DNA of 64,000 bases from Methylococcus geothermalis (GTDB taxonomy: Bacteria; Pseudomonadota; Gammaproteobacteria; Methylococcales; Methylococcaceae). Where the stretch lies: NCBI RefSeq assembly GCF_012769535.1, contig NZ_CP046565.1:3253501-3317500 (forward strand). The letters are read 5' to 3'. Positions 9,132-44,934 of this stretch are shown in pieces (position 1 is the stretch's first letter; every line of letters begins with the position of its first letter). Both the position numbers and the translations under genes were made by a program. Under the pieces are notes generated by a model. It was given only the letters and a program-made list of their open reading frames with translations, was not told the DNA's origin and searched no databases.

Positions 9132-9149
9132 TTGGCATAGGTAATGCTT
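9132..9149 (+). promoter_or_regulatory. Sigma-54 (-24/-12) promoter of the nitrate operon
   Basis: The sequence TTGGCATAGGTAATGCTT has GG at 9134-9135 and GC at 9146-9147, the exact 12-base offset of RpoN promoters. Transcription would start near 9159, just before the first leader hairpin. The same arrangement recurs before the porin gene at 20355. An NtrC-type activator site is expected upstream but I could not define one. The remaining bases of the 8940-9305 gap contain no gene. Confidence 0.75.
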
Positions 9150-9163
9150 GAATCCTTCTGAAA

Positions 9164-9250
9164 CCTGCGCCAACGGCGGCGCGGCACCAGGACAAAGGCG
9201 TCTTGGGCTTTGTGGACTAGCTTCCGCGAAGCCTAAGACGCTTTTTTTTG
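9164..9250 (+). ncRNA. NasT/ANTAR antitermination leader upstream of the nitrate transporter
   Basis: Two adjacent hairpins each carry a six-base loop with A at position 1 and G at position 4, the ANTAR recognition rule. P1 pairs 9167-9171 with 9178-9182 around loop AACGGC. P2 pairs CCAGGAC (9187-9193) with GTCTTGG (9200-9206) around loop AAAGGC. The 3' arm of P2 overlaps the 5' arm of the terminator that follows, so the two are mutually exclusive. NasT, encoded at 19183, is the expected binding protein; NasS would sequester it when nitrate is absent. Confidence 0.88.
9198..9249 (+). terminator. Intrinsic terminator of the nitrate leader
   Basis: GCGTCTTGGGCTT (9198-9210) pairs with AAGCCTAAGACGC (9229-9241), a 13-bp stem with one G-T wobble, followed directly by eight T residues (9242-9249). 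It lies between the promoter and the transporter gene, so it acts as an attenuator that NasT bound to P1/P2 would prevent. Confidence 0.9.
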
Positions 9251-39881: not shown

Positions 39882-40081
39882 CTCGCGGTACTCGCCCCGC
39901 GAGTGGCGGCGGGAGGTATGGCGGACGCCGGCATGAATCCGACGTCCTTCCCAGATCCTCGCGGTACGTGCCCCGCGAGTGGCGTTTGTTTCCTCGCAGT
40001 ACTCGCCCCGCGAGTGGCGCTTGTTCGACCGTTCTCGACCAAGCCGTAAAACAGCTCGCAGTACTCGCCCCGCGAGTGGCG
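39882..40081. repeat. Cluster of four 27-bp palindromic repeats
   Basis: Copies lie at 39882-39908, 39958-39984, 39993-40019 and 40055-40081. The core ACTCGCCCCGCGAGT can fold as ACTCGC/GCGAGT with a CCC loop and is preceded by CTCGCrGT and followed by GGCG. The second copy differs (ACGTGCCCC). Single copies are at 42339-42365, 42496-42522 and, inverted, at 43711-43737. The repeats fill the gap between the virion-like gene and the antisense RNA locus. Confidence 0.85.
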
Positions 40082-40129
40082 TGACCTTATTGTAACCATA
40101 CGCCGGCGGGCTGTGCTACACTTTCAACT

Positions 40130-40352
40130 GTCCCCGGACGGTTCCGGGGCCGGGCGTGGAAACCCGATAGCACAAAGGCGCACCCTCGCGCCCTGACCGG
40201 CGCTTTTTTATGCCGGTCGGCTTCCCATGACGGGCGGTGCGAGGCACGGTACGTCCGTGGCCGGTTCCTTTGTGCCGGTTTTCCACCCTCGCATCGTCCG
40301 TCACCCTTGCACTGTGGAAAGTGCTGGTGACGGTTTCCAAGCAACACAAAGG
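40130..40352 (+). ncRNA. C4-like antisense RNA and its target leader
   Basis: The segment 40156-40178 contains GTGGAAA and GCACAAAGG. The segment 40267-40286 contains their complements CCTTTGTGC and TTTCCAC in the matching order, 90 bases downstream on the same strand. CCTTTGTG (40267-40274) is also complementary to CACAAAGG (40345-40352), which includes the ribosome site of the next gene. This is the layout of the C4 immunity RNA of phages P1/P7 and P4 relatives, where a processed antisense RNA and its target lie on one transcript. A hairpin GACCGGC/GCCGGTC (about 40195-40218) sits between. A possible -10 TACACT is at about 40115-40120. Confidence 0.6.
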
Positions 40353-40362
40353 AGCCAACACC

Positions 40363-40662
40363 ATGACATCCCCTACCACGGGCGCACACCGCCCGATCAT
40401 TTCCCTATCCCATGCGCATCGGCTCGATGGCGATGTGCGACGGCTTGCCGATGAGCTGGAACACCTGGCACTGATTTGCGATGACTGGGTAAACCAGTGC
40501 CACAAAACCGAAGCGCTGCGTGAAGTCGCCCGCTGCGTCCGGGCCGCCAGCCGGGCCATGTCCAAGGCCAAGAACCCGGCCAGACAAGTCTGGATCGAGG
40601 CGCACGCGGAGGAAGGTTCGGCCACGGTCACCGGCGACCAGGAGGAGCCCAGCCATGATTGA
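40363..40662 (+). CDS. Element protein under the C4-like leader (99 aa)
   Basis: ATG 40363 follows AAAGGAGCCAACACC, a strong ribosome site. The product begins MTSPTTGAHRPIISLSHAHR and has a helical middle (GDVRRLADELEHLALICDDW, then EALREVARCVRAASRAM). The frame is open upstream to 40237, giving a leader peptide-like region LALWKVLVTVSKQHKGANTM. Icd/Ash-type genes of P4-like elements show a similar layout, with translation through the antisense target. By position it may be an anti-immunity or host-targeting protein. Function unknown. Confidence 0.65.
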   Translation: MTSPTTGAHRPIISLSHAHRLDGDVRRLADELEHLALICDDWVNQCHKTEALREVARCVRAASRAMSKAKNPARQVWIEAHAEEGSATVTGDQEEPSHD

Positions 40663-40759
40663 GCAAATCAAAACGACCCTGGCGGCGCTGGGCATGGCCG
40701 ACGTGATTTTTTCCATTGCAAACATGCTGGCCGGCTGGCTGGCGGGAGGTGGACTATGA
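40655..40759 (+). CDS. 34-residue hydrophobic microprotein
   Basis: The frame reads MIEQIKTTLAALGMADVIFS followed by IANMLAGWLAGGGL. GGAGGAGCCC lies just upstream, the start overlaps the previous gene by eight bases, and the stop overlaps the next start (ATGA). Such tight packing argues for translation. It is probably a single membrane-associated helix. Confidence 0.55.
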   Translation: MIEQIKTTLAALGMADVIFSIANMLAGWLAGGGL

Positions 40760-41013
40760 AAGACGCGAACGCGGTTGAACGGATGAACGGGGCACTGCAA
40801 ACGGCAGGCATGGCGGCCCGATCGGTGGCGGCGGGGCTGGTGCTGCTGCGTATGAACCGCAGCGAAGACCCTGGGCTGAACGACGATGAGTACGAGGCGT
40901 TCTGCTGGAGTCTGGAGCAATCGGTCATGGAGGTGGCCGAGGTGCTGGATATGGCCATGCACATGCTACGCACCCAGGCCGAGGAGACGGCGCGTGACCC
41001 GGCGCAGCGGTAG
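40756..41013 (+). CDS. Hypothetical element protein (85 aa)
   Basis: An alpha-helical, acidic protein beginning MKDANAVERMNGALQTAGMA, with DDEYEAFCWSLEQSVMEVAE in the second half. No domain recognised. It overlaps the microprotein before it and the RepA-like gene after it (starting at 40994), so all belong to one operon led from the C4-like leader. Confidence 0.6.
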   Translation: MKDANAVERMNGALQTAGMAARSVAAGLVLLRMNRSEDPGLNDDEYEAFCWSLEQSVMEVAEVLDMAMHMLRTQAEETARDPAQR

Positions 41014-42196
41014 GCCGGTGGCGGTGGGGAACCTCGCGCTGCGGGTGGCCGAGATGGCGGCGCGGGCACGGGAGGCGCCGAGGCCTTCGGCTCCGCCGGT
41101 GACGCCGAGGCCTTCGGCTTCACCCGTGCCGCCCAGGCCTTCGGCTTCTTCGGTGGCGCAGTGTGGCCGGGTGACGCTGGGGGTGAACCTGTTGCAGGGC
41201 GCCAGCGTGCAGCCTGAGCCGGTCCGCTGGCTGTGGCCGGGCTGGCTGGCGAAAGGCAAGCTGCACGTCATCGCCGGGCAGCCCGGCACGGGCAAGACCA
41301 GTCTTGCGCTTTCCCTAGCGGCGACGCTGACGGCGGGCGGACGCTGGCCGGACGGCACGCCGGCGGCGCCGGGCAACGTGCTGATCTGGTCCGGCGAGGA
41401 CGACGTGAGGGATACCCTGATGCCGCGCCTTCTGTCCTGCGGGGCGGATCCGAAACGCTGCTTCTTCATCACCGACGTGCAGGCCGAAGACGGGCGGCGC
41501 CCGTTCGACCCAGCCCGCGACATGCCCGCCCTGCTGCGTGCGGCGCGGGAGGTGGGCGAGGTGCGGTTGCTGCTGGTCGATCCGATCGTGTCGGCGGTGG
41601 CGGCGGACAGCCACAAGAACGCCGAGGTGCGGCGCGGGCTGGCCCCGCTGGTGACGCTGGCCGAGCGTCTTGATTGCGCCTTGCTGGGCATCTCGCACTT
41701 CTCCAAGGGCTCGGCGGGCCGTGATCCGCTGGAGCGGGTGACCGGTTCGCTGGCGTTCGGGGCGCTGGCCCGGATCGTGTTCGCGGCCTTCAAGCGCTCG
41801 GAGGAGGACGGCGGCGGTCGCTGCCTGGCGCGGGTGAAGTCGAACCTCGGGCCGGACGAGGGCGGCTTTCTCTACGAGCTGGTTCTCGATGCGCTGGCCG
41901 AGCACCCAGGCGTGACGGCGACACGGGTCGACTGGGGCACGGCGGTAGCCGGTTCGGCAAGGGCGCTGCTGGCGCGTGCGGAGGCCGCGTGTGATCCGGA
42001 AGCCATGTCGGCGCTGGACGAAGCCTGCGCGTTTCTTCAGGAGCTGTTGGCGGCTGGGCCTGTGGCGGCGGCGGAAGTGAAGATGGAGGCCGAGGCGGCG
42101 GGTGTTTCGGAAAGGACGCTGAAACGAGCAAGGAAGAAACTGGCGCTGACCGTGACCAAAACAGGCATGGAGGGCGGCTGGGTCTGGGCTCTGTAA
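40994..42196 (+). CDS. RepA-like hexameric helicase / AAA ATPase
   Basis: About 400 residues from GTG 40994, which has GGAG seven bases upstream. An Ala/Pro-rich repeat-like linker (RPSAPPVTPRPSASPVPPRP) precedes a RecA-fold ATPase: Walker A in IAGQPGTGKTSLALSLA, GNVLIWSGEDDVRDTL, Walker B in VRLLLVDPIVSAV, and the sensor motif ALLGISHFSKGSAGRDPLERV. This is the RSF1010 RepA-type helicase family. A C-terminal winged-helix-like region (AGVSERTLKRARKKLAL) may bind DNA. A second iteron-like array begins 19 bases after its stop. Confidence 0.88.
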   Translation: MTRRSGRPVAVGNLALRVAEMAARAREAPRPSAPPVTPRPSASPVPPRPSASSVAQCGRVTLGVNLLQGASVQPEPVRWLWPGWLAKGKLHVIAGQPGTGKTSLALSLAATLTAGGRWPDGTPAAPGNVLIWSGEDDVRDTLMPRLLSCGADPKRCFFITDVQAEDGRRPFDPARDMPALLRAAREVGEVRLLLVDPIVSAVAADSHKNAEVRRGLAPLVTLAERLDCALLGISHFSKGSAGRDPLERVTGSLAFGALARIVFAAFKRSEEDGGGRCLARVKSNLGPDEGGFLYELVLDALAEHPGVTATRVDWGTAVAGSARALLARAEAACDPEAMSALDEACAFLQELLAAGPVAAAEVKMEAEAAGVSERTLKRARKKLALTVTKTGMEGGWVWAL

Positions 42197-42338: not shown

Positions 42339-42650
42339 CTCGCAGTACTCGCCCCGCGAGTGGCGTGCCGACATTTTACCCATAGGGCGCCACACCCCAA
42401 ACGGTCCAATCACCCGGCTGTGGCCGTGACGCGATGCAGGCCGGCGGTGGGCTGGACCTCCAGCCGTGGCCGACATCCAGGCCGTGCCTGATCCTCTCGC
42501 AGTACTCGCCCCGCGAGTGGCGTGATTTCATTTTACCCATTAGGCGCCACACCTCAAACGGTCCAATCATTCGACGGTGCCGGCGCTGGCGGCGGGCTGG
42601 ACCTCCAGCCTTGGCCGACCTCCAGCCCGTGCCGGGCCCCGAGGCCTTGG
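42339..42650. repeat. Segmental duplication of about 155 bp, each copy led by the palindromic repeat
   Basis: The block 42339-42495 is repeated at 42496-42650. Both start with the 27-bp palindromic repeat, continue with ATTTTACCCAT, GGCGCCACAC and AAACGGTCCAATCA, and end in a GGGCTGGACCTCCAGCC segment that leads into the 36-bp minisatellite. The copies differ by scattered substitutions, so the duplication is not recent. Confidence 0.75.
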
Positions 42651-43707: not shown

Positions 43708-44934
43708 TCACGCCGCTCGCGGGGCGAGTACCGCGAGGCGGCCCGCGTCCTTTTTCAGCCCGTCCAGGTAATCTGCCCATGCCTGCATCATCTTCCGGCG
43801 TTCGGGCAGGTGCGCCGTGCGGTTATAGGCTCGCCCGTTGGGATCGCGCACGGCATGCGCTAACTGATGCTCGATGTAATCGGGCCGGAATCCAAGTACT
43901 TCATCCAGCACGGTACGCGCCAGCGCCCGGAAGCCGTGAACGGTCATTTCGTCCTTGCCGAACCCCATGCGCCGCAGTGCGGCCAGCAGGGCCACGTCAG
44001 ACATGGGCCGGGAACCGTTCGGTGTTCTCGCGGAAGGGAACACATAGCGCCCGCGTCCGGTCAGCGCATAAAGCGCACGCAGGATGTCCACGGCTTGGGT
44101 TGCCAGGGGAACGATGTGCGGCGTGCCGGTCTTGGTCACGGTGTAGCGCCATTCTGCCGCGTTCAGGTCGATATGTGCCCATTCCGCTTTCCGTAGCTCG
44201 CCAGGGCGCACAAACACCAGCGGGGCCAGCTTCAAGGCGCATTGCACAGTGAACGTTCCCTGGTAGGCGTCAATCGCTCGCAGCAATTCCGCCGCGCGTG
44301 ATGGTTCGGTCATGGCCGCGAAATTCCCGCCCTTCACCGGCGGAAGCGCCCCTTTCAGATCGCCGGAAGGATCACGGTCCGCCCTTCCGGTCGCCACGGC
44401 ATAGCGGAAAATCTGGCCGCAGTTCTGCAATGCCCGGTGCGCCGTTTCCACCGCGCCACGCGCTTCGATTCGCCGCAGCGCCGCCAACAATTCGGTGGCG
44501 TTGATTTCGGCGATTGGCCGCCCGCCCAGCCAGGGGAAAATATCCCGCTCCAGCCGGCGAATAATCCGGTCGCCGTGGCTCCCTGCCCAGGAAGGTGCTT
44601 GCTTGGCGTACCACTCCCGCGCCACCACTTCAAAGCTGTTCGCGGATCGGTCGGCTTGCGCCGCCTTCATCGCCTTGCGGCTCTCGCCGGGGTCGACGCC
44701 TTGGGCGATTTGCCTCCGGGCTTGGTCGCGCCGTTCGCGGGCATCCTTCAGGCTCACTTCAGGGTAAGTTCCCATAGAAAGAGTCTTGCGCTTGCCGTCA
44801 AACCGGTAATCCAGCCTCCACCACTTACCTCCAGAAGGCACGATGAGCAGGTACAGACCTTTTTCGTCGGATAGCCTGGAATTCTTGTCGCCTCTGGGTT
44901 TGGCGTTGCGGATTACGGCATCGGTCAGCGGCAT
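43708..44934 (-). CDS. P4-type tyrosine integrase
   Basis: 408 residues. The N-terminal arm-binding domain is typical (LTDAVIRNAKPRGDKNSRLS, LYLLIVPSGGKWWRLDYRF, KTLSMGTYPEVSLKDARERR). The catalytic residues are visible as Arg in FVRPGELRKAEW, His/Arg in VHGFRALARTVL, His in EHQLAHAV, and Tyr in GRAYNRTAHL. The gene starts about 165 bases from the tRNA-fMet and runs away from it, the standard layout. Its last residues (LAVLAPRAA) are encoded by a copy of the 27-bp palindromic repeat, so the C-terminus appears to have been replaced or extended by repeat DNA. Confidence 0.94.
   Translation of the reverse strand: MPLTDAVIRNAKPRGDKNSRLSDEKGLYLLIVPSGGKWWRLDYRFDGKRKTLSMGTYPEVSLKDARERRDQARRQIAQGVDPGESRKAMKAAQADRSANSFEVVAREWYAKQAPSWAGSHGDRIIRRLERDIFPWLGGRPIAEINATELLAALRRIEARGAVETAHRALQNCGQIFRYAVATGRADRDPSGDLKGALPPVKGGNFAAMTEPSRAAELLRAIDAYQGTFTVQCALKLAPLVFVRPGELRKAEWAHIDLNAAEWRYTVTKTGTPHIVPLATQAVDILRALYALTGRGRYVFPSARTPNGSRPMSDVALLAALRRMGFGKDEMTVHGFRALARTVLDEVLGFRPDYIEHQLAHAVRDPNGRAYNRTAHLPERRKMMQAWADYLDGLKKDAGRLAVLAPRAA
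43711..43737 (-). repeat. Palindromic repeat copy forming the integrase 3' end
   Basis: This inverted copy of the 27-bp repeat has one change (GCTCGC for ACTCGC). Its flank AAATGAAATCACGCC matches the flank of the copy at 42496 (GGCGTGATTTCATTT), showing that they descend from a longer shared block. It codes for the last residues of the integrase. Confidence 0.8.

Follow-up and report, generated by a model that had tools for sequence, protein, structure and literature searches.

Upstream of a small open reading frame (ORF) that starts at position 40363 of a 64,000-nucleotide stretch of the Methylococcus geothermalis genome (the window), short segments can pair with one another in more than one way, which raises the question of whether this locus encodes an antisense RNA of the C4 type and, if so, what this RNA controls and how. 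All positions given below refer to the plus strand of the window unless stated otherwise. The initial annotation had proposed a C4-like antisense RNA, together with a covariance search with the C4 family model as a check, and this search bears the proposal out: Rfam model RF01695 matches positions 40223-40308 over its full length (1-87) with 68 bits (E 4.4e-11), the gathering cut-off being 45 bits. As a single sequence the segment folds alone with -48.5 kcal/mol, its minimum free energy (MFE) structure has three stems with the a' and b' arms in place, and the fold persists within a longer RNA. Moreover, when 32 C4 loci of this bacterial family are aligned, 17 of the 22 consensus pairs exhibit compensatory changes. 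Judged by its sequence, 40223-40308 is a genuine C4 antisense RNA of the P1/P4 kind. Its b' antisense element forms the loop of stem P3 (40265-40274, TTCCTTTGTG) and is followed by the a' arm (40279-40286, TTTTCCAC). The 3' strand of stem P1 (40298-40305) is also complementary to GGTGACGG at 40326-40333, i.e. it could alternatively form a hairpin d; across loci both helices covary (z 14.9 for P1 and 9.9 for hairpin d).

The elements around this RNA follow the full P1-type layout, i.e. a leader with the targets a1 and b1, a terminator, the C4 RNA, a2, b2 at the Shine-Dalgarno site, and finally the ORF. Target a1 (GTGGAAAC, 40156-40163) lies in the loop of a hairpin spanning 40151-40166 and is complementary to a', whereas b1 (GCACAAAGG, 40170-40178), complementary to b', overlaps the 5' arm of the antiterminator described below by 2 nt. 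Downstream of C4, a2 (GTGGAAAG, 40314-40321) sits in the loop that closes a small hairpin (40309-40324), and b2 (CACAAAGGAG, 40345-40354) includes the Shine-Dalgarno sequence of the ATG at 40363. The complementary segments a1, b1, a', b' and b2 had all been placed correctly to within 1 nt by the initial annotation, including the complementarity of the b' word to the ribosome site of the gene at 40363. Its picture of three alternatively pairing segments holds insofar as these pairings covary with a' and b' in 70 loci, but it has to be extended, as there are two target pairs, a1/b1 and a2/b2, and a2 had been missed. With a' and b' fixed, the summed complementarity at the four sites was reached by none of 3000 dinucleotide-shuffled flanks, while the single sites were reached in 226 (a1), 10 (b1), 112 (a2) and 6 (b2) of the 3000. 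A C4:target helix is absent from the cofold MFE structure, which counts neither for nor against the pairing because the program cannot draw loop-loop contacts.

Further evidence on these pairings comes from related loci. There are three C4 loci in the genome of the window, and at least one is found in 18 of 38 genomes of the family, with a maximum of 13 per genome. For 70 C4 loci from this family each a' and b' was scored against its own flanks and those of the other loci. At all four sites the cognate complementarity was above all 5000 permutations, with covariation z values of 24.7 (b'-downstream), 17.0 (a'-downstream), 16.3 (b'-upstream) and 17.0 (a'-upstream), in a test that ignores the relatedness of the 70 loci. 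The antisense elements are highly diverse, as there are 61 distinct versions of b', each fitting its own targets, and 48 of a'. In seven pairs of loci with near-identical scaffolds, 85 of 258 positions differ in b1/b'/b2 as compared to 66 of 1404 elsewhere, a sevenfold excess; the pairs were chosen for differing b', so that the share of b' itself arises by construction, but the matching changes in b1 and b2 do not. As these close pairs carry different, yet matching letters on nearly the same scaffold, shared ancestry is ruled out as source of the covariation.

The same behavior is found within the genome of the window. In its second copy (L003) a1 and a2 read GTCGAAA with a' being TTTTCGAC, whereas the window has GTGGAAA and TTTTCCAC; likewise, b1 is CTACGGG, b2 CTACGG and b' TTTCCCGTAG, i.e. 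the b'/target words are CCCGTAG/CTACGG in the second copy and CCTTTGTG/CACAAAGG in the window. The concerted change of the letters of a1/a'/a2 and b1/b'/b2 points to selection. In the third copy (L002) the leader is lost and the helicase gene broken, yet b' and b2 of the third C4 locus (L004 8099-8260) still match (TCCTTGG/CCAAGGA). The second copy also contains an int-alpA RNA (RF02996) between the integrase and alpA genes (L005 1861-1931); in the window copy no int-alpA RNA scored above the cut-off.

How could binding to the leader affect expression? A probable extended -10 promoter element (TGCTACACT, 40114-40122), identified by its match to the consensus, places the expected transcription start near 40129. 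A clear -35 element was not found at this promoter; -10-like elements lie about 97-113 nt before C4, as here, in many related loci, several with a TTGACA at -35 as well. The predicted leader RNA of about 81 nt (40129-40209) resembles IsrK and seqA, shares its layout with related loci and ends at an intrinsic terminator. It scores 31.4 bits with isrK (RF01394, cut-off 50) and 27.4 bits with c4-a1b1 (RF03163, cut-off 46.7), and because both scores are below the cut-offs we class it as similar to, rather than as a member of, these families. Among the relatives, one leader scores 46.9 bits with c4-a1b1 (L082), and two score 55.1 and 53.3 bits with isrK (L077 and L078). The first leader hairpin (CCCCGGA-CGGT-TCCGGGG, 40132-40149), evident from sequence and MFE fold, has its counterpart in hairpin 1 of the c4-a1b1 model. 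Behind b1 lies an antiterminator hairpin (GGCGC-N6-GCGCC, 40177-40192), the 3' arm of which is identical to the 5' arm of the terminator (GCGCC-N6-GGCGC and TTTTTT, 40188-40209). A competing helix is present in 64 of 68 scored loci, in 56 of which the 5' arm overlaps b1, and the helix occurs in compensatory versions, e.g. GACGC/GCGTC, GCGGC/GCCGC and AGGCG/CGCCT.

In partition-function folding the terminator of the window leader has a computed probability of 0.23 in the free state and of 0.99 once b1 is blocked. For 67 loci the mean increases from 0.53 to 0.80 (39 up, 2 down), and control blocks of equal length elsewhere give a mean of 0.51 (Wilcoxon p 3e-9, 67 loci). These values describe equilibrium, not co-transcriptional, folding, and as the b1 block changes the terminator probability only little in 26 of the 67 loci, the attenuator step is a tendency rather than a rule. 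The computation suggests that b1 binding may work through the terminator/antiterminator switch, and, given the rise in terminator probability, C4 therefore probably acts twice, i.e. by promoting termination in the leader and by blocking translation at b2.

The first gene of the controlled operon (40363-40662) encodes a helical protein of 99 aa. The initial annotation had described it as being of unknown function, and indeed it matches neither Pfam nor PHROG at E<=0.001; as a family it has only weak matches to PHROG (best 0.002) and Pfam. Single-sequence searches of the genome and viral contig collections detected no relative of the protein, a DNA search of phage and plasmid collections gave no match, and the alignment of the protein lacks any stretch of sufficient conservation for a scan. 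A whole-genome search identified 15 members of the family in 38 genomes, 14 of which are located directly behind a C4 RNA, 13 of these 14 being sequences from which the family model was built. Single-sequence structure prediction yields a three-helix model (pLDDT 75, pTM 0.51), and short bundles of this kind match too many folds to be diagnostic. Shortly 3' of the start codon a hairpin (CGGGCG-CACAC-CGCCCG, 40379-40395) is present that was reached by none of 200 codon shuffles; 30 of 68 loci are at <=10/200. Hairpins of differing sequence, about 15-25 nt past the start codon, occur in C4-controlled ORFs encoding unrelated proteins at many related loci. The operon continues with a hydrophobic ORF of 34 aa (MIEQIKTTLAALGMADVIFSIANMLAGWLAGGGL, 40655-40759), the peptide of which is nearly identical in the second copy and could be a Kil-like membrane peptide, an 85-aa ORF that has no family match (40756-41013), and an AAA_25/RepA-type helicase of 400 aa (40994-42196; Pfam PF13481, E 7e-40; phrog_10729, DNA polymerase/primase). 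Elsewhere in the bacterial family C4 RNAs precede, and would control, antirepressor-type proteins (Bro-N, KilA-N, AntA, pRha, ORF6N, P22_AR_N). One genome harbors three tandem cassettes (L074 5900-8536), each consisting of a C4 RNA and its own antirepressor-like ORF, and two of the three have a nearly identical scaffold yet different b letters. On a Sedimenticola contig C4 and c4-a1b1 both score over their cut-offs, and a homologous helicase gene lies about 1 kb downstream.

The operon is part of an integrated element that encodes AlpA and a Prim-Pol/DUF3987 primase upstream, and a resolvase and an integrase downstream, followed by tRNA-Met. Directly upstream of the C4 promoter a genome pattern search located four 24-bp iterons (39882-40078, minus strand) with the palindromic sequence CACTCGCGGGGCGAGTACYGCGAG, and further copies are found in the window at 42339-42362, 42496-42519 and 43714-43737. 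The genome contains 16 copies (<=2 mismatches), none of them outside the three elements that carry C4, whereas the reversed pattern, used as a control, has 0 copies; they may serve replication, as the P4 iterons do. Integrase by a tRNA, AlpA, primase/helicase, a CI-type RNA and iterons, the traits expected of a P4-like satellite, are all present in or near the element, which accordingly resembles a replicating satellite of the P4 type. But the orientation of its integrase differs from that in the second copy, neither the ends of the element nor a repeat of the tRNA end (att repeat) were found for the window copy, and there is no capsid or portal protein among the ten element proteins scanned. 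In another part of the window (9134-9204) there is a match to the Rfam narK RNA (RF03032, 47.5 bits, cut-off 43.2).

We favor, with a probability of about 0.88, that the locus serves a small, P4-like integrated element as an immunity switch based on an antisense RNA of the C4/CI type. As the matches are short and the sequence is G+C-rich, one might attribute the complementarity to chance or shared ancestry, yet this reading is refuted by the shuffles, by the permutations at each site, by the close pairs and by the Rfam match, and its probability is negligible. That the element is defective and its C4 RNA a decayed relic no longer regulating anything that matters would be in line with the degraded third copy and with the lack of a detected tRNA-end repeat and of capsid or portal proteins among those scanned; nevertheless, we regard this as improbable, as the four pairings, the terminator, the antiterminator and the ORFs of the window copy are all intact and the concerted changes in the second copy argue for selection.

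Even less probable in our view is a mechanism acting solely in cis, in which C4, being part of a long leader, pairs intramolecularly with b2 as a mask and b1 competes, no free antisense RNA being made. All segments do reside on one transcript, the conserved hairpin d uses one strand of C4 stem P1, and alternative structures on a single mRNA are found for IsrK of prophage Gifsy-1 (PMC4825925). But C4 is very stable on its own and keeps its fold in a longer RNA, this fold is conserved through compensatory changes, and in P1/P7 the C4 RNA exists in free form after cleavage by RNase P (PMC5320573). Thus, of the competition with a ribosome-site mask that had been put forward in the initial annotation, the position of b2 at the Shine-Dalgarno sequence stands, but the evidence favors a separate, folded antisense RNA that addresses both target pairs, plus a b1 attenuator, over a mainly cis-acting mask.

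For the immunity switch the C4 fold, the four targets, the overlap of terminator and antiterminator, and the order of the operon can be read directly from the DNA, whereas we infer expression, RNase P processing, repression and immunity at this locus by analogy to P1, P4 and Gifsy-1. A single promoter (around 40114-40122) would give rise to a leader carrying a1 and b1. When free, this leader would tend toward the antiterminator hairpin, so that part of the transcription may extend past the terminator into C4 and the genes of the operon. The RNA segment of C4 would then fold and probably be excised by RNase P, the processed form in the C4 family being ~77 nt long. Acting in trans, free C4 may pair with a1/b1 of newly made leaders, removing an arm of the antiterminator and thereby causing termination at 40209, and with a2/b2 on read-through transcripts, covering the ribosome site in front of the 40363 ORF. 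The outcome would be a dormant operon, i.e. neither the small protein nor the two short ORFs nor the RepA-type helicase would be expressed, and incoming elements that share its pairing letters would likely be excluded. The short leader RNA with a1/b1 may additionally serve as a decoy that relieves repression, just as the short IsrK RNA does.

More tentatively, with the odds somewhat against it, the C4 loci of this family may be regarded as a hypervariable recognition system, in which a1/a'/a2 and b1/b'/b2 switch in concert on a nearly constant scaffold and provide co-resident elements or tandem antirepressor cassettes with private codes, pairing at b1 throwing a leader attenuator in each case. 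Cross-talk is no lower within one genome (mean 0.67) than between genomes (0.68), and active avoidance of shared codes is thus unsupported. What could be new is that the pairing letters change in concert and in a localised manner; a literature search of incomplete coverage found no report of this, and thus counts only weakly as evidence of absence. If the hypervariable reading is true, these loci make testable how three separated sites change together. C4 RNAs as such are already known, but in related bacteria their pairing letters changed in concert many times, so that the 70 relatives constitute a natural compensatory-mutation test of the entire P1/P4 pairing scheme. Near-identical scaffolds with different codes, sometimes in the same genome, would allow direct tests of how RNA-immunity specificities arise and stay separate, and the window itself provides a clean C4 system outside enterobacterial phages that is tied to a replication-type operon.

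The arms, targets and RNase P cut of C4 RNAs have been described (PMC5320573), and, as in the window, C4 of P1/P7 is a three-stem RNA with a' and b', a1/b1 upstream and a2/b2 downstream, b2 lying at a small ORF's ribosome site. The RF01695 scores are virtually the same (P1 68.8 bits, window 68), and P1, too, has a terminator and a competing helix beside b1, the terminator probability rising from 0.61 to 0.89 upon blocking b1 in the same computation. However, C4 of P1 controls icd-ant, i.e. an antirepressor, whereas in the window operon an unrelated 99-aa protein comes first and a helicase is part of the operon, and the window leader scores under the c4-a1b1 cut-off. The IsrK - STnc1160 - orf45 - anrP region of Gifsy-1 resembles the window locus in that its leader ends at an intrinsic terminator and read-through yields a processed RNA of about 80 nt and extends into a small ORF (PMC4825925). 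In Gifsy-1 an antirepressor is activated by the short leader RNA, which relieves the antirepressor mRNA, but the target protein of the window locus is unrelated and its leader stays below the isrK cut-off (31.4 vs 50 bits). In satellite phage P4 the CI RNA, which has seqA and seqC as targets and scores 74.9 bits with RF01695, brings transcription of the replication genes to an early end (PMC4825925), and the attenuator effect computed here, as a tendency, agrees with this role. The helicase and primase families differ between the window element and P4, and none of the P4 genes for exploiting a helper was recognised among the window-element proteins scanned. Nevertheless, a1/b1, terminator, a2/b2 and hairpin d are readable in the P4 sequence and match the window, and, like P4, the window locus combines a replication helicase in the controlled operon with an element that carries AlpA, primase and iterons.
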